A DNA stretch of 64,000 nt, from the NCBI RefSeq assembly GCF_002261345.1, contig NZ_NEVT01000009.1:248001-312000 (forward strand). Direction: 5' to 3'. The position numbers were made by a program, and so were the translations under genes. Each line of letters opens with the position of its first letter. Positions within the stretch are counted from its first letter, which is position 1. Shown here piece after piece: positions 11,639 through 50,664 of this stretch. The notes under the pieces are model-generated. The model worked only from the letters and a program-made list of their open reading frames with translations, had not been told where the DNA came from and searched no databases. The stretch is from Bordetella genomosp. 2. Lineage in GTDB: Bacteria; Pseudomonadota; Gammaproteobacteria; Burkholderiales; Burkholderiaceae_B.

Positions 11639-13722
11639 GGCAGCTCGGCCGTGCGCACCGTGGGCGGCTCGATGCGGCCGAGCCGCGCCTTCAGCGACTG
11701 CGGCTGCCCGGTAAACATGGCGGCGTAATACGTGGCGTTGGACATCACGTGCTTGACGTACAGGCGCGTCTCGGTGAACGGGATGGTCTCGGCGAAGATG
11801 GCGCCCTCGACCGGATGCGACAACGTGGCGCGCCAGGTCTTCGGCCGGCCCGGACCGGCGTTGTAGCCGGCGCTGGCCAGCACCTGCGAGCCATCCAGGC
11901 CATTGAGCACGATGCTCAGGTAATTGGTGCCCAGGACGGTGTTGGTGTCGAAATCGTTGACGCTGGACGGCGAATAGTCGGCCATGCCGATCTTGCGCGC
12001 CACCCATTTGGCGGTGGCGGGCATGAGCTGCATCAGCCCCGAGGCGCCTACATGCGAACGCGCGTTCATGACGAAGCGCGATTCCTGGCGGATCAGCCCG
12101 TACACCCAGGCGGGGTCGAGGGCGATGGCGTTGGCCTGGGCGGTGACCCGGCCCTCGAACGGCGCGATGTAGCGCTGGGTGAAGTCGACTTCTTTCTCGG
12201 TGCGCTCCGAGGTGTTGACGACGCGGTCGTAGATGTCTTCGGCGCGCGCCAGCTCGGCGGCGGCCAGCAATTGGCGGTCGGACATGCCGCGCAACGCGAA
12301 ATTCCATTCGCCCACCGCCTCGGACCGCCAGCCCAGCCGGAACAGGTGCACGGCGCGGCGCAGGCCGGCATTGGCGCGCGCCTCGGCCATTTCCTGGTCG
12401 GTGACCGGCGCCGGCCGCGGCGGCACCGTGATGCGGCGGCCGAGTTCCTCGGCCGCCAGCTGGCCATAGAAGTTGTATTGGTCGGCGATGCTGGCATAGC
12501 CCTGCTGCGCCTGGGCGGCGCGGCCGCGCGCCGCGTCGCTGCGCGCCTTCCAGTAGACCCATACCGGCTCGGCCTGCTGGGCGGCCGGCATCAGCTCGAT
12601 GGCCGCATGGACCCAGCGCCAGTCGATCTTGGGCTGGCGCAGGGCCGAGCGCACGCGCCACGCGCCGTTGTAGTCGGTCAGCGCGATGTCGCCGGCTTCG
12701 CGGTACCAGGCGTCCGCCCGGCTGTCGAGATTCAGCGCCGCGATCAGCGCATACTGACTGCGCACCCAGGCCAGGTTCGACTTGGGCAGGTTATTGGCCC
12801 ATTCGCGCCGCAAGTAGGAATCGGCCACGTCGAGGTCCTGGCGCGCCAGGCGCGCCAGCGCCACGGTGGCCAGTTCCTTTTCATTGCGGCCCACCAACTG
12901 GTGATCGCGCCGGGTCAGCCACTTCATGGGGCTCTTGAGCAGCGCGTCGAAAGTCTTCTGGTCCTTGAGCTCGAAGATGTAGCCGGCGAACTTGCGCGCA
13001 TCGCCGACCCGGTCGGTCTCGATGGCGGCGCGCAGCTGCGGCTGGATCTCGTCCCAGCCCAGCACCCCGTCGGCGACGAGCTGATCGTAGAGGTTCCAGC
13101 AGTCCCGGCCTGGCGAGAAGGCCTCGAGCGCCTGCCTGGCGGTGGCGCGCTGGCCGGTCATGTGGCGCGCTTCGAGGATGGCGCAGCGGGTCTGCGCATT
13201 GGCGTCGGGGACGTCGCCCAGTTCGCGCGCGGTCTCGAAATCGCCGCTGCGCGCCGCCGACAGGATCCAGCTGCCGCGCAGCCGCTCGGCCAGGTAGGTG
13301 CCGGCGTGGTCTTTCAGGAAGCGCGCCGCTTCGGCCTTGGGCTGCACGCCGCCGGGCGGATTCCAGAGCTGGTAGCGCAGCAGCCAGTAGTCCGGGTAGC
13401 TGCCCAGCAGGTCGCTGCGCGCCTGCGGCGCCAGCATGGCCAGCACCGACCACTGCTTGCGCTCGTTGGCTTCGCGAGCCGCGATGACCGCATCCCGGGC
13501 GGGCGTCTGCGCCGTGGGCGGCAGGCCGGCCAGCTTGACCGGCGGCACGGCGATCGCCGGGCGGGCGGCCTGTGCCGGGGCGGCCGGCGCGTGCCCCTGC
13601 TGGGCATCGACCGACGAGCAGGCTGCGGTGAACAGGGCCAGTACGGGCAGCCAGCGCCGCGCCCCGCGGGGCTCGAACGTGCTGGATTTCTGATAAGGTC
13701 CTGATTCAAGCCACTGCCGCAT
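11635..13722 (-). CDS. slt: Soluble lytic murein transglycosylase (Slt70-type)
   Basis: 695 residues. It cleaves peptidoglycan between MurNAc and GlcNAc with 1,6-anhydro formation in the periplasm. A basic stretch and hydrophobic segment ([16 protein letters not shown]) form a signal peptide, possibly of lipoprotein type although the lipobox is poor. A long alpha-superhelical region follows, then the catalytic domain with GLIRQESRF (catalytic Glu), [13 protein letters not shown] and [10 protein letters not shown] near the C-terminus. I chose the ATG at 13722; a GTG at 13755 would run into the divergent gene. It heads a tightly overlapped operon with cca and a histidine kinase. Confidence 0.92.
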
Positions 13723-13733
13723 TGTCGACCCGC

Positions 13734-14417
13734 ATGAACATTCGAAATTCCGCACAGAATAACGCAGTCGCGCTACGCGCGCGATTGCGGCAAGCCCGCG
13801 CCGACCTGCCCGCCGCGCAACGCGACCGCGGCGGCCTGCTGATGCGCGGACGCCTGTTCACCTGGCTCAATGCCGCGCGCGACCAGGCCGTCAAGCGCGG
13901 CGCCCGCCCTCCCGCCACGGTGGCGGCATTCTGGCCGCTGGAACACGAGCCCGACCTGCGCCCGCTGCTCGACCAATGGGCGCAGGCCGGCATCGCCGTC
14001 GCGCTGCCGGCCATCCGCGAGCCCGCCGCGCCGCTCGAGTTCCGCGCCTGGACTCCCGGCGCCGCCTTGCGCGCCGGCCCGTACAACGTGCAAGAGCCGG
14101 CCGCCGACAGTCCGCTGCTGCGCCCCGACGTGGTCCTGGTGCCCACGCTCGGCTACACCCTGCAGGCCGACCGCCTGGGCTACGGCGGCGGCTATTACGA
14201 CCGTACGCTCGCCGCGCTGCAGCGCGACGGCCAGCCCTGCACCACCATCGGCGTGGCCTGGAACGAAGGCCTGATCGACAGCGACGACTACCAGCCGGCC
14301 GAGCACGACGTGCGGCTCGATGCCGTGCTCACGCCCGACGGCTGGGTGCCCGAGCCGCCGCTGCTGGGTCCCGGCGCGCCCACCGGCGGCAGCCTGGGGT
14401 CGTACGTGCTGCGCTGA
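13734..14417 (+). CDS. ygfA: 5-formyltetrahydrofolate cyclo-ligase family protein
   Basis: 227 residues. Converts 5-formyl-THF to 5,10-methenyl-THF with ATP. The family's N-terminal basic helix (ALRARLRQARADLPAAQRD), the substrate-loop region LVPTLGYTLQADRLGYGGGYYDRTL and the late GVAWNEGL segment are present. The start ATG at 13734 lies only 11 bp from the start of the divergent slt gene, so the promoter must lie inside slt. In many proteobacteria this gene sits near 6S RNA; I found no 6S-like sequence here. A GC hairpin at 14424-14442 follows the stop. Confidence 0.9.
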   Translation: MNIRNSAQNNAVALRARLRQARADLPAAQRDRGGLLMRGRLFTWLNAARDQAVKRGARPPATVAAFWPLEHEPDLRPLLDQWAQAGIAVALPAIREPAAPLEFRAWTPGAALRAGPYNVQEPAADSPLLRPDVVLVPTLGYTLQADRLGYGGGYYDRTLAALQRDGQPCTTIGVAWNEGLIDSDDYQPAEHDVRLDAVLTPDGWVPEPPLLGPGAPTGGSLGSYVLR

Positions 14418-14532: not shown

Positions 14533-14547
14533 GCACCACTTTGGTGC
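14533..14547. promoter_or_regulatory. NtrC-type enhancer site
   Basis: The palindrome GCACC-N5-GGTGC (spacer ACTTT, flanked on the right by A) fits the well-known enterobacterial NtrC site pattern TGCACC-N5-GGTGCA in both arms and spacing, apart from the first T. It lies about 90-105 bp upstream of a sigma-54-type promoter, the usual enhancer distance. Confidence 0.65.
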
Positions 14548-14636
14548 ACGCCGCTCAGGGCCAACCCGCCTACCTGCGCGGCGGGCCTTCTGCTACAACG
14601 ACTACAGGCCCACGGACATCCCGTGCCCGCGGGACC

Positions 14637-14652
14637 TGGCATAAGGGTTGCT
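14637..14652 (+). promoter_or_regulatory. Sigma-54 (-24/-12) type promoter of the Anbu operon
   Basis: TGGCAT-N5-TTGCT has the invariant GG and GC and the exact spacing of the RpoN consensus (TGGCAC-N5-TTGCW). It differs only at the last base of the -24 block. It points toward the ATP-grasp gene whose ATG is at 14749, leaving about an 85-nt leader. Confidence 0.65.
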
Positions 14653-14748
14653 TGATTGCAGTCGGCGCGTCCGCCCACGCGCCCACGTTTCGGGCCGCAG
14701 GCTCCATCCGGATCACGCGGCCGGCCCGGACCGGTACAAGGAGGAGCC

Positions 14749-16182
14749 ATGCAGCATCCCCAGCCCGCCCCCGCGGCGGCGTATGACGAAATGGTCGACG
14801 CCCACGGCGAAGTGCGCCCTCACTACCAGGCGTTCTCGCAGTGGCTGGCGCAAGAGCCCGAAGACGCCATGGCGGCGCGCCAGATCGAGGCCGACCTGAG
14901 CTTCCGGCGCGTCGGCATCACTTTTTCGGTGGCCGGCGACGAGGCCGGCACCGAGCGGCTGATCCCGTTCGACCTGATCCCCCGCATCATCCCCGCCGAC
15001 GAATGGCAGCGGCTGGACGCCGGCCTGAAGCAGCGCGTGCGGGCGCTGAACCTGTTCATCCACGACATCTACCACGGCCACGAGATCGTGCGCGCGGGCG
15101 TGGTGCCGGCCGAACAGGTATTCCTGAATGCGCAGTACCGCCCCGAAATGCAGGACGTGGACGTGGCCGAGGACATCTACTGCCACATTGCCGGCGTGGA
15201 CATCGTGCGGGCCGGGGCCGGCGAGTTCTATGTGCTGGAAGACAATCTGCGCGTGCCCTCCGGCGTGTCGTACATGCTGGAAAACCGCAAGATGTCGATG
15301 CGCCTGATGCCCGACGTATTCGGGCGTGTGAAGGTCAAGCCGGTGGCGCATTACCCGGACCTGCTGCTGGACAACCTGCGCGAAGTGGCGCCGCGCAGCA
15401 TCGACGCCCCGACGGTCGTCGTGCTGACCCCTGGCATGTACAACTCCGCATACTTCGAGCATGCCTTCCTGGCCCAGCAGATGGGGGTGGAGCTGGTCGA
15501 GGGCCAGGACCTGTTCGTCGAGCAGAACACCGTGTACATGCGCACCACGCAGGGGCCGCGCCGCGTGGACGTGATCTACCGGCGGGTGGACGACGACTTC
15601 CTCGACCCGCTGTCGTTCCGCGCCGATTCGGCGCTGGGCGTGCCCGGCCTGCTGTCGGTGTACCGGGCCGGGCGCGTCACGCTGGCCAACGCCATCGGCA
15701 CCGGCATCGCCGACGACAAGTCCACTTACCAGTACGTGCCCGACATGATCCGCTTCTACCTGAAGGAAGAGCCGATCCTGGCCAATGTGCCCACCTGGCG
15801 CTGCGCGCGGCCCGACGAGCTGTCGCACGTGCTGGCCCACATGCACGAACTGGTGGTCAAGGAAGTGCACGGCGCCGGCGGCTACGGCATGCTGGTGGGC
15901 CCGGCCGCGACGCGCGCGCAGGTCGAGGCCTTCAAGGCGCGGGTGCGCGCCAACCCGGCCAACTACATCGCCCAGCCCACCCTGGCGCTGTCGACCATCC
16001 CCACCTATGTCGAGGCCGGCGTGGCGCCACGCCACGTCGACCTGCGCCCTTACGTGCTGTGCGGCAAGGACATCCGCACCGTGCCCGGCGGGTTGTGCCG
16101 CGTGGCCCTGGTGGAGGGCTCGCTGGTGGTCAACAGCAGCCAGGGCGGCGGCACCAAGGACACCTGGGTACTGGGAGACTGA
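14749..16182 (+). CDS. Circularly permuted ATP-grasp protein (DUF404/DUF407), Anbu cluster
   Basis: 477 residues beginning at an ATG preceded by AAGGAGGAG. The sequence matches the circularly permuted ATP-grasp family: SFRRVGITFSVAG, IPFDLIPRIIPADEW, FIHDIYHGHEI, the central EDNLRVPSGVSYMLENR, VDVIYRRVDDDFLDP, and VKEVHGAGGYGMLVGP. ATP-grasp enzymes join a carboxylate to an amine via acyl phosphate, so a peptide or amide ligase activity is likely, but no substrate is established. It is the first gene of a four-gene unit with alpha-E, transglutaminase and Anbu, only 2 bp before the next gene. Two upstream elements predict nitrogen control. Confidence 0.93.
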   Translation: MQHPQPAPAAAYDEMVDAHGEVRPHYQAFSQWLAQEPEDAMAARQIEADLSFRRVGITFSVAGDEAGTERLIPFDLIPRIIPADEWQRLDAGLKQRVRALNLFIHDIYHGHEIVRAGVVPAEQVFLNAQYRPEMQDVDVAEDIYCHIAGVDIVRAGAGEFYVLEDNLRVPSGVSYMLENRKMSMRLMPDVFGRVKVKPVAHYPDLLLDNLREVAPRSIDAPTVVVLTPGMYNSAYFEHAFLAQQMGVELVEGQDLFVEQNTVYMRTTQGPRRVDVIYRRVDDDFLDPLSFRADSALGVPGLLSVYRAGRVTLANAIGTGIADDKSTYQYVPDMIRFYLKEEPILANVPTWRCARPDELSHVLAHMHELVVKEVHGAGGYGMLVGPAATRAQVEAFKARVRANPANYIAQPTLALSTIPTYVEAGVAPRHVDLRPYVLCGKDIRTVPGGLCRVALVEGSLVVNSSQGGGTKDTWVLGD

Positions 16183-16184
16183 CC

Positions 16185-17135
16185 ATGCTGAGCCGCACCG
16201 CCGACAACCTGTTCTGGATGTGCCGCTACATCGAGCGCGCCGAGAACACCGCCCGCATGCTGGACGTCAACCTGCAGATGTCGCTGCTGCCGCAGGATGC
16301 GCAAGCGCGCGACGGCCTGTGGCGCGCCGTGCTGCGCATCTCGGAACTGCAGCACGGCTACGACGCGCGCTACCCCGCCGTCACGCCGCTGGACGTGCTG
16401 CACTACATGGTGCGCGAACCGCACAACCAGTCGTCCATCTACGCCTGCCTGCGCGCCGCGCGCGAGAATGCACGCGCCGTGCGCGGCAGCCTGACCACCG
16501 AAGTCTGGGAAACCTACAACGCCACCTGGCTGGAACTGCAGAAGCACCTGCAGACCAACCTGCCCGAACGCAATCCAGGCGAGTTCTTCGAATGGGTCAA
16601 GTTCCGCGCCCACCTGGCACGCGGCGTCACCATCGGCACCATGCTGGAAGACGAGGCGCTGCACTTCCTGCGGCTGGGCATGCACCTGGAACGCGCCGAC
16701 AACACGGCGCGGCTGCTCGACGTGAAATTCCACGAAGACGACGGCGACCACCCCGCGCGCGCCAGCCGGCACAGCGAGTTCTATCGGTGGTCGGCGCTGC
16801 TGAGCTCGGTGTCGGGGCTGGAGATCTACCGCAAGGTGTACCGCGACGTGATCACGCCGGACCGGGTGGCCGAACTGCTGATCCTGCGCCCGGACATGCC
16901 GCGTTCGCTGCTGGCCTCGGTGCAGGCGCTCAACGAGGACCTGGCGCGCGTGTCGAACCAGCGCTCGGCCGAGACCGAGCGGCGCGCCGGCATGCTGCAC
17001 GCCGAACTGCGCTACGCGCGCGTCGAGGACATCCTGCATAGCGGCCTGCACCGCTACCTGGAGCGCTTCCTCGACCGCATCAACGACCTGGGCAACCGCA
17101 TCAGCCAGGATTTCCTGGTCCCGCTGGCCGCCTGA
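16185..17135 (+). CDS. Alpha-E domain protein, Anbu cluster
   Basis: 316 residues, mostly alpha-helical. It starts MLSRTADNLFWMCRYIERAENTARMLDV, the diagnostic opening of the alpha-E family; a second LGMHLERADNTARLLDVKF repeat of the same motif occurs near residue 165. These proteins are almost always encoded beside a circularly permuted ATP-grasp protein and a transglutaminase, and the fused forms in other species suggest one enzyme complex. Biochemical function is unknown. It starts 2 bp after the previous stop and is followed 10 bp later by the transglutaminase gene. Confidence 0.93.
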   Translation: MLSRTADNLFWMCRYIERAENTARMLDVNLQMSLLPQDAQARDGLWRAVLRISELQHGYDARYPAVTPLDVLHYMVREPHNQSSIYACLRAARENARAVRGSLTTEVWETYNATWLELQKHLQTNLPERNPGEFFEWVKFRAHLARGVTIGTMLEDEALHFLRLGMHLERADNTARLLDVKFHEDDGDHPARASRHSEFYRWSALLSSVSGLEIYRKVYRDVITPDRVAELLILRPDMPRSLLASVQALNEDLARVSNQRSAETERRAGMLHAELRYARVEDILHSGLHRYLERFLDRINDLGNRISQDFLVPLAA

Positions 17136-17145
17136 GGAGCCCCGC

Positions 17146-17949
17146 ATGAAGCATTTGATCAGGCACCTGACGCAGTACCGCTACACCGCGCCGGTCGGCT
17201 ACAGCATCCAGACCCTGCGCCTGACGCCGCGTCCCGACGAGCACCAGCGCACGCGGCGCTGGCGCATCGACGCGCCAGGCCCGCTGCAGCAGCAGGTCGA
17301 CGCCTACGGCAACATCACGCATGTGCTGACCCTGACCCGCCCGCACGACAGCATCGAGCTGAGCGTAACCGGCCAAGTCGACATCGACGAGCTGCCCGAC
17401 GGGCGGCTGCGCCCCGAAGACAACCGCCTGCCGGTGCACGCCTATTGCGTGCCGACGCCGCTGACCCAGGCCGACGACCCGATACGGGAGTTCGTGCATG
17501 CCGCCCTGCCCGGCGGCCTGCGCACCCCAGCCGACGCGCTGGCCCTGGCCGGCGCCATCTGCGACCGGGTGGCCTACGAACCGGGCACCACCGACGTCAC
17601 CACCGCCGCCGGCCAGGTGTTGACGCTGGGCCATGGGGTGTGCCAGGACCACGCCCACCTGTTCCTGGCCTGCGTGCGCGGGCTGGGCATCCCGGCCCGG
17701 TATGTGAGCGGCTACCTGTACACCGAGGCCGAGCATGCCGCCAGCCACGCCTGGGCCGACGTATGGCTGGCCGATGTCGGCTGGACCAGCATCGATATCA
17801 CCAACCGCCAGTTTGCCTCGGAATGCCACTGCCGCCTGGCGGTGGCGCGCGACTACGACTCGGCCTCGCCGGTGCGCGGGGTGCGCCACGGCGGCGGCGA
17901 GGAATCGATGACGGTCTCGGTCCAGGTGCAGGCGGCCGGCCAGCAGTAA
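17146..17949 (+). CDS. Transglutaminase-like protease/amidase, Anbu cluster
   Basis: 267 residues. An N-terminal beta-rich domain (YRYTAPVGYSIQTLRLTPRP) precedes the papain-like transglutaminase core. The triad is visible: Cys166 in GVCQDHAH, His201 in SHAWADVW, Asp217 in SIDITN. Bacterial members act as amide-bond hydrolases or ligases in the cytosol. The close linkage with an ATP-grasp ligase and a proteasome-like peptidase suggests that one enzyme makes and another breaks an amide linkage; that is inference. No signal peptide is present. Confidence 0.93.
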   Translation: MKHLIRHLTQYRYTAPVGYSIQTLRLTPRPDEHQRTRRWRIDAPGPLQQQVDAYGNITHVLTLTRPHDSIELSVTGQVDIDELPDGRLRPEDNRLPVHAYCVPTPLTQADDPIREFVHAALPGGLRTPADALALAGAICDRVAYEPGTTDVTTAAGQVLTLGHGVCQDHAHLFLACVRGLGIPARYVSGYLYTEAEHAASHAWADVWLADVGWTSIDITNRQFASECHCRLAVARDYDSASPVRGVRHGGGEESMTVSVQVQAAGQQ

Positions 17950-18029
17950 TTGGGGTCGATTCACGGGCGCGGCCGGCACGCCGCCCGGTTCCCCCCTACA
18001 ATACGCCAGCCGTTTTCCACCGTACGACC

Positions 18030-18890
18030 ATGACCTACTGTGTAGCCGCCCGCCTGGACGCGGGCCTGGTTTTCCTGTCCGACTCGCGCACCAACGCGGG
18101 CGTGGACCAGATCAGCGTTGCCCGCAAGCTGAACGTCTTCGAGCAACCCGGCGACCGCGTCATGGTGCTGCTGACCTCCGGCAACCTGGCGATCAGCCAG
18201 GCCGTGGTGAACCTGCTGGCCCAGCTCGACGGCGACAGCCCCGATTCCCTCTGGTCGGCGCCCGACATGTATGAAGCCGCCCGCCGCGTGGGCGAGGCCG
18301 TGCGCCGCGTGCACGAGCGCGACGCCGAGGCGCTCAGCGAGCACGGCGTGGATTTCAACATCAACCTGATCTTCGGCGGCCAGATCGGCGCCGAGCGCTG
18401 CCGCCTGTTCCAGATCTATTCGGCCGGCAACTTCATCGAGGCCAGCCCGGACGTCCCGTACGTGCAGATCGGCGAGGCCAAGTACGGCAAGCCCATCCTC
18501 GACCGCGTGCTGCGCTCCGACACGTCGCTGGACGAGGCCGCCAAGTGCGCGCTGATTTCCATGGACTCGACGCTGCGCTCGAATATCTCGGTCGGCCTGC
18601 CGCTGGACATGCTGGTGTACGAAGCCGGCGCGCTGCGCGTCACGCACTTCGCCCACATCGACGAAGACAACGAGTACTTCCGCATGATCCGCAAGACCTG
18701 GGGCGAACGCCTGCGCCAGGTCTTCGCCGAAATCGCCGACCCCAGCTGGACCGACGCTGGCGCGAGCGGCTCGCTGGCCGCCGCGGGCCGCCTGCACCAG
18801 CCGCACCGGCTCACCCCGGGCGGCGCCGACGCGACACCCGCGCCGCTGCAAGTGCTGGCGCAGGACCCGGGCAAGTCGCAAGCCAGCTGA
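18030..18890 (+). CDS. anbu: Anbu, proteasome-like peptidase subunit
   Basis: 286 residues. Anbu is a bacterial homologue of proteasome beta subunits. Removal of Met exposes Thr2 (MTYCVAARLD) as the N-terminal nucleophile without a propeptide; Asp18 in SDSRTNAG and Lys33 in VARKLN match the proteasome Asp17/Lys33 pair. Other family parts are SGNLAISQ and FGGQIGAERCRLF. Anbu assembles into open helical or ring-like particles rather than closed barrels, and its substrate is unknown. About 45 residues at the C-terminus, after the conserved domain, are Ala/Gly/Pro-rich and probably flexible. It is the last gene of the cluster, 80 bp after the transglutaminase. Confidence 0.95.
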   Translation: MTYCVAARLDAGLVFLSDSRTNAGVDQISVARKLNVFEQPGDRVMVLLTSGNLAISQAVVNLLAQLDGDSPDSLWSAPDMYEAARRVGEAVRRVHERDAEALSEHGVDFNINLIFGGQIGAERCRLFQIYSAGNFIEASPDVPYVQIGEAKYGKPILDRVLRSDTSLDEAAKCALISMDSTLRSNISVGLPLDMLVYEAGALRVTHFAHIDEDNEYFRMIRKTWGERLRQVFAEIADPSWTDAGASGSLAAAGRLHQPHRLTPGGADATPAPLQVLAQDPGKSQAS

Positions 18891-20274: not shown

Positions 20275-21693
<1,419 letters not shown>

Positions 21694-21795
21694 GTGTGTG
21701 CTCCGGTAAAGATTCAACGGCAATGTGCGCATTGCGGACGGCCGTGCGGAACACCTATGAGACCGGCGCCCGCCCTTGCCGCCGTCGTTGCGACA

Positions 21796-21914
21796 AAGGT
21801 GAGCGCCGTTGCTGGGCGCCACGACTGCGGCGCCCGGAAAGATTCCTGAGCCTGGCGGCCCCTGCGTACCGCCCGCATGGCGGGCAGCCGGAGGTCGTCG
21901 CAGCGCTCCTCAGG
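21796..21914 (-). ncRNA. S-adenosylhomocysteine (SAH) riboswitch of ahcY
   Basis: Read on the minus strand, the leader has the conserved blocks of the SAH riboswitch in order: CCTGAGGAGCGCTGCGAC, then GCCAGGCTCAGG, then CAACGGCGCTCACC. CCTGAG (21909-21914) pairs with CTCAGG (21845-21850) as the closing P1 stem. GCGCT in the first block can pair with the late AACGGCGCTCACC, giving the long-range contact of this class. Binding of SAH is known to turn on ahcY expression in related betaproteobacteria and pseudomonads. Confidence 0.93.
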
Positions 21915-21924
21915 ACTGGATCGA

Positions 21925-50477: not shown

Positions 50478-50664
50478 GTGTCTCGGAAGGTGTCAGACAC
50501 CCCGCGAGACGCCCCACGCAGGCAACGACCGCCGCATGGGGTGTCTGACACCTGGAGCGCGTTGCAGGGCGGAGGCGTCAGACACCGCAGGGTGCCTGAC
50601 ACTTGTAGACACCTGGATGGTGTTGCATCGTGGCGGTGTCAGACACCTTCCGGTGTCTGACACC
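50478..50664. repeat. Cluster of GGTGTCTGACACC palindromes
   Basis: Between the converging rmlC and lipA genes lie at least six copies of the palindrome or near-copies: 50489-50501, 50540-50552, 50574-50586, 50591-50603 (degenerate), 50635-50647 and 50652-50664. The last two form a 13 bp stem with a 4-nt loop TTCC. An outer near-palindrome, GGTGTCTCG and CGAGACGCC, encloses the first copy. No gene is visible in this 243 bp gap. Confidence 0.85.

Follow-up and report, generated by a model that had tools for sequence, protein, structure and literature searches.

Which genes are served by a candidate nitrogen-starvation promoter in a Bordetella Anbu cluster?

Gene clusters that encode the proteasome-like protein Anbu raise the question of when they are expressed, and as what unit. 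Anbu was first described in 2008, and its substrates are still given as unknown in PMC5666114 and PMC6376114 (all papers cited here are represented by part of their text); the recombinant protein was inactive on the standard proteasome substrates tested (PMC6376114). One such cluster lies in a 64,000-nucleotide stretch, called the window below, of the 5.02-megabase genome of Bordetella genomosp. 2. It comprises genes for an ATP-grasp ligase, an alpha-E protein, a transglutaminase-like protein and Anbu, and an original prediction held that NtrC and sigma-54 switch on this proteasome-like system under nitrogen limitation. The reading favoured here, at a probability of about 0.7, is that a nitrogen-starvation promoter serves the three-gene core, whereas Anbu has a -10 element of its own and is probably independent.

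The two elements on which the question turns are found in the 331-base-pair (bp) intergenic region between a folate cyclo-ligase gene (13722-14417, + strand) and the ATP-grasp gene. An enhancer-like NtrC-type palindrome, GCACC-N5-GGTGC, occupies 14533-14547 (as a palindrome, on no particular strand), and a sigma-54 -24/-12 box, TGGCAT-N5-TTGCT, follows at 14637-14652 on the + strand. Both stand where the original prediction put them and in the orientation it gave, and neither has a second exact match in the window; both are conserved before many orthologues. The sigma-54 pattern TGGCAYN5TTGCW, with its GG and GC correctly spaced, matches once in the window against 0.15 in shuffled sequence. 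With up to one mismatch, the palindrome occurs 14 times against 10.2 expected, so that by itself it is weak and the pair with the sigma-54 box is what counts. In the mechanism that we propose, phosphorylated NtrC would bind the palindrome and loop to sigma-54 polymerase at the box, and under nitrogen starvation transcription would begin near 14663 on the + strand, 12 nucleotides past the GC of the -12 element as judged from sigma-54 promoter geometry.

The original prediction implied that both elements should recur upstream of the same cluster in other bacteria, and to a considerable extent they do. The ATP-grasp gene was matched in 40 of 121 family-sample genomes at an expectation value (E) of 1e-30 and in 119 of 370 class-sample genomes at E 1e-120. 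From these were taken 37 of the 39 family loci other than the window's own (fragmentary matches in genomes G012 and G051 were left out), together with 3 order and 60 class loci, these 63 being hand-picked by score and family spread from the 118 other matching class genomes. A named set added 80 loci among the matches listed in a genome-contig scan; contig-edge loci L201 and L219 were dropped, a Pleurocapsa genome entered only once (as L248), and the genome that L234 shares with L073 was kept in both sets. Among the 24 four-gene loci of the family, the window included, the box with up to one mismatch was present in 18 (shuffles 0.40), the exact box in 15 (0.00) and the box together with the NtrC palindrome in 16 (0.03), while spacing controls of N4 and N6 gave 0/24 each; removal of near-duplicates left 16/21 for the box and 14/21 for the pair. 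A near-consensus box was found on the forward strand in 59 of all 130 proteobacterial loci and on the reverse strand in 7, and 50 of 60 box matches fell 50-149 bp ahead of the matched ATP-grasp sequence. The result was unchanged (55/121 forward, 7/121 reverse) once L234 and eight further loci were removed as near-duplicates. By group, the box was present in 5 of 14 family loci with no Anbu within 6.5 kilobases, in 19 of the 63 order and class loci and, among the matches listed, in 17 of 29 named Proteobacteria. In the set from other phyla, likewise among the matches listed, it was found in 5 of 46 loci and the pair in none; three of its members are deltaproteobacterial or Desulfuromonas loci, and another, the unclassified L245, has all four genes and accounts for one of the five matches. 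None of 32 cyanobacterial loci had either box or pair. A complete four-gene Anbu cluster was also seen on a Klebsiella pneumoniae plasmid typed as conjugative (pKp_SB612_1, L166); its ATP-grasp gene is preceded, at 66 bp, by the near-consensus box TGGCAT-N5-ATGCT.

The genome itself holds 59 exact NtrC palindromes and 16 sigma-54 consensus sites. Three of the 16 have an exact palindrome 60-220 bp upstream, those before the Anbu cluster (offset 104 bp), glutamine synthetase and one further gene; the chance of such a palindrome before any given site is 0.0019, and three of 16 corresponds to P = 3.7e-6. With up to one mismatch and within 300 bp, 7 of the 16 have a palindrome. The genome encodes NtrC (TIGR01818) and NtrB equivalogs, both above cut-off, as well as two RpoN genes (L005, L006). 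An NtrC/sigma-54 promoter before the cluster is thus borne out by the conservation in orthologues, by the presence of NtrB, NtrC and RpoN, and by a layout shared with the genome's glutamine synthetase and ammonium-transporter promoters. One RpoN gene appears, by eye, to be preceded by its own sigma-54 consensus box (L020). In three same-genus genomes (L025, L314, L318) a small gene carries a sigma-54 box and, 110-120 bp upstream, an NtrC site that is exact in L025 and L314 and has one mismatch in L318; the L314 copy matches the Pfam family ABM, antibiotic biosynthesis monooxygenase.

Which genes would such a promoter serve? A Pfam search gave the order expected of an Anbu operon, all on the + strand. 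The circularly permuted ATP-grasp ligase (14749-16182, ATG at 14749; CP_ATPgrasp_2 PF14403 and PF04174) has a solved homologue in 3n6x, a putative glutathionylspermidine synthase according to its depositors. The alpha-E gene (16185-17135; PF04168) encodes an all-helical protein with a predicted model of mean pLDDT 95. The transglutaminase-like protein (17146-17949; Bact_transglu_N PF08379, Transglut_core PF01841) has a papain fold, with its Cys, His and Asp motifs located. Anbu, a proteasome-like Ntn hydrolase (18030-18890; Proteasome PF00227; solved chains 5loy, 5nyw, 5nyj, 5nyf and 5lox), retains Thr1, Asp17 and Lys32, the catalytic residues named in PMC6376114. For alpha-E, a sequence search of solved structures at E 0.1 gave no match, nor did Foldseek with the model find a significant one among solved structures; residues invariant across 54 alpha-E sequences include W11, R14, E17, R18, R93, E169 and R170. 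The window's Anbu extends 46 residues (18750-18887) past the last residue aligned to its best-matching solved chain.

The gaps between these genes are 2, 10 and 80 bp, the last before Anbu. In the 24 family loci a gap of 35 to 132 bp precedes the Anbu start codon, whereas the core genes mostly lie close together: measured to the profile match, the distance from ATP-grasp to alpha-E is -7 to 18 bp in 23 loci and 81 in one, and that from alpha-E to transglutaminase 9 to 67 bp. The gap before Anbu holds a conserved -10-like hexamer, TACAAT at 17997-18002 (+ strand), 33 bp before the Anbu ATG, that probably belongs to a separate Anbu promoter. Within 100 bp of the Anbu start, TANAAT is present in 22 of the 24 loci (shuffles 0.68) and TACAAT in 17 (0.30), 14 of these 17 hexamers lying 32-36 bp before that start. 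Repeated before alpha-E and before transglutaminase, the search gave 0/24 in each case, but these stretches are largely coding and hence imperfect controls. Given this conserved housekeeping-type element, Anbu is probably expressed independently of the core rather than being central to the response to nitrogen starvation.

A second phylum bears on the same point. In Cyanobacteria the nitrogen regulator to consider is NtcA, for which the box consensus is GTAN8TAC (PMC3898017) and which was above cut-off in all three genomes tested. The ATP-grasp gene was present in 35 of 146 sampled cyanobacterial genomes at E 1e-140, and 30 of these loci and two others were tested. The exact NtcA box was found upstream of ATP-grasp in 12 of the 32 (shuffles: mean 1.23, maximum 4), against none for GTAN7TAC and 3 for GTAN9TAC; with four near-duplicates removed the count was 10/28 and the controls again 0 and 3. 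In 20 longer loci, the 8,000 bp upstream of ATP-grasp held 11 boxes and the remaining 185,704 bp held 14, making the box 17-fold denser upstream (P = 1.5e-9). Alpha-E follows ATP-grasp in 13 of these 20; one of the 20 is truncated at a contig end. Anbu was found in five, downstream on the opposite strand in four and upstream on the same strand in one, and in one of these five an NtcA box lies no more than 300 bp from the Anbu gene. The NtcA box before ATP-grasp, taken with the conserved -10 element before Anbu, suggests that the switch belongs to the core and that Anbu is expressed separately. Among the papers listed in a search that took in neither most subscription papers nor any supplements, none was found to report NtcA control of the ATP-grasp/alpha-E/transglutaminase unit; nor did a look-up of terms within PMC9284123 show such control, and the main text of PMC3898017 has none of the gene-family terms looked up there. 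A further protein was seen repeatedly in the neighbourhood of the cyanobacterial ATP-grasp gene, in six loci (L198, L282, L283, L293, L296, L297), one copy having a Met/Pro-rich repeat tail. In Paenibacillus (L164), one exact GlnR/TnrA-type box, TGTNAN7TNACA, was seen by eye in the ATP-grasp leader.

The most serious rival, which we consider unlikely, is that all four genes form one operon that NtrC switches on as a whole, as the original prediction and parts of the literature have it, here to degrade proteins in bulk or after tagging in nitrogen starvation. Anbu lies behind the core on the same strand in the 24 family loci, and a search for terminator-like sites gave none between transglutaminase and Anbu (the sole listed site is inside Anbu), making read-through possible. 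Induction of Anbu in Pseudomonas putida under nitrogen starvation is cited in PMC5666114 and PMC6376114, and PMC7801951 also cites two earlier studies that saw induction of Anbu or of the whole operon; the operon is that of Hervas et al. 2008/2009, as cited in the three papers. In the RNA-sequencing table of PMC7801951, however, where PP_2685-PP_2688 are attributed to NtrB/NtrC, wild-type Anbu changed 1.12-fold and the other three genes 11 to 15-fold, and in a relA/spoT mutant Anbu changed 4.81-fold and the rest 17 to 37-fold. Besides the conserved -10 element, two further facts tell against a single unit: where Anbu is near the cyanobacterial gene it lies on the opposite strand in four of five loci, and an NtrC/sigma-54-dependent cluster of Burkholderia cenocepacia H111, I35_5080-5083 (BCAM1233-1236), whose expression fell 6.0- to 9.4-fold when ntrC was mutated, lists no Anbu in the text consulted (PMC5491218). 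Of the predicted nitrogen switch, then, the promoter is supported for the core, and its extension to a whole unit that includes Anbu is not.

That said, a number of observations weigh against a nitrogen promoter for the core with Anbu apart. The window box has just one NtrC site (up to two mismatches) 60-250 bp upstream. The pair is missing from 8 of the 24 family four-gene loci and the box from 6, two same-genus genomes among them; the pair was found in none of the 14 family loci lacking Anbu nearby, in only 5 of the 63 order and class loci and in only 5 of the 29 named Proteobacteria. The loci share descent, so the shuffle comparisons overstate independence; the reverse-strand and spacing controls carry the same relatedness as the loci tested. 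In P. putida, the core was still induced 14-20-fold in an rpoN mutant, and sigma-54 dependence was not seen (PMC7801951); urea transporter genes also were still induced in that mutant. The exact NtcA box is absent from 20 of the 32 cyanobacterial loci, and in only 3 of 30 does a -10 element stand at the canonical distance from it (shuffles 0.12), so that activation rather than repression by NtcA, which is also capable of repression (PMC3898017), is not established. As for Anbu, TANAAT is rarer before the gene outside the family (9/28, shuffles 2.58; 8/21, shuffles 0.80), and a simple promoter consensus found no -35 partner for the hexamer.

Losses within the genus speak for another, improbable alternative, that both elements are chance or remnant and that some other promoter drives the cluster, for example a presumed -10-like element, TACAAC at 14594-14599 (+ strand), seen in a same-genus alignment. 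In G015, one of five same-genus genomes sampled, the ATP-grasp gene was not matched; of the four having it, two (G103 and G053) retain an open frame for it but lack a -24/-12 box at the place in the aligned leader where the other two carry one. The TACAAC/TACAAG/TAAAAC element is kept in all four copies, including both that are without the box. Both genomes also keep NtrC, with box and exact palindrome at glutamine synthetase and box and one-mismatch palindrome at the ammonium transporter, and their lineages may have switched from nitrogen-controlled to ordinary expression of the cluster. Against chance or remnant, conservation at the same position across genera far exceeds the shuffles and reverse-strand controls.

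If a nitrogen-starvation promoter does serve the ATP-grasp/alpha-E/transglutaminase core, the three genes would make up a nitrogen-scarcity module, and its chemistry can be guessed at. Ligation to a carrier acid is known from polyamine breakdown, and glutathionylspermidine metabolism pairs an ATP-grasp ligase with a cysteine amidase. By analogy, the ATP-grasp enzyme may ligate a carrier acid to an amine-bearing substrate, the amide being cleaved later by the transglutaminase-like cysteine enzyme with alpha-E as partner, a cycle that would help to release or protect scavenged nitrogen. This is the chemistry we prefer, as a tentative suggestion that may well prove wrong. Both NtrC and NtcA switch on scavenging under nitrogen scarcity whereas stores are made in excess, and for this reason a scavenging cycle is preferred over an amide-linked nitrogen store that the cluster makes and breaks. 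That store, floated in the original prediction and consistent with ligase and amidase-type folds encoded together, suits regulators predicted to act in scarcity poorly and had no store protein or polymerase recognised by eye among the recurrent neighbours, making it very improbable. In marine metagenomes the domains of the core genes co-vary with urea metabolism domains (PMC3597751).

The presence of nitrogen-control sites in two phyla, for regulators unrelated to one another, would turn the search for a substrate toward nitrogen metabolism and the core enzymes, with nitrogen scarcity as a concrete culture condition in which to seek it; a separate Anbu promoter, if true, would explain the conflicting expression reports. 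In its broadest form, which we regard as evenly balanced between right and wrong, the proposal is that the core is a widespread nitrogen-scarcity module under unrelated regulators (NtrC/sigma-54 in Proteobacteria, NtcA in Cyanobacteria, perhaps GlnR/TnrA in Bacillota), with Anbu a separately promoted, optional partner.

Two other features of the window were recorded. An S-adenosylhomocysteine (SAH) riboswitch (Rfam RF01057, 46.7 bits, 21794-21917, - strand) lies near the 5' side of a frame at 20275-21822 that resembles S-adenosylhomocysteinase by eye. A short palindromic repeat, GGTGTCNGACACC, occurs in 11 copies with up to one mismatch against 0.12 expected (8845, 8863, 18951, 18969, 22217, 22268 and 50489-50664), often in close pairs, one of them directly past the Anbu stop.

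Set beside known systems, the closest counterparts of the window promoter are in the same genome, at genes identified by Pfam. The glutamine synthetase promoter has the same box with an exact palindrome at an offset of 100 bp, against 104 at the Anbu cluster; it also has a second NtrC site, at offset 67 (both with up to one mismatch), where the Anbu cluster has one. The ammonium-transporter promoter again has the same box, with a palindrome of one mismatch at 109 bp, though the box lies about 430 bp before the transporter gene, with room for another gene between. Among published clusters, P. putida PP_2685-PP_2688 is alike in its Anbu-type and transglutaminase genes, in being the operon meant by the Anbu papers and in its induction by nitrogen limitation; it differs, on published expression (PMC7801951), in that Anbu was flat in the wild type and the core was still induced in the rpoN mutant. 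The B. cenocepacia H111 cluster shares the DUF404/407 ATP-grasp, DUF403 alpha-E and transglutaminase genes and is regulated by sigma-54 (PMC5491218), while its fourth gene encodes a large transglutaminase-domain protein. NtrC and nitrogen control of such clusters is thus already in print for both species, and the regulatory reading, though supported, is not new in kind. The NtcA-activated promoters of Cyanobacteria answer to the same signal, nitrogen scarcity, and their box stands before the same ATP-grasp gene, but the regulator is unrelated to NtrC/sigma-54.

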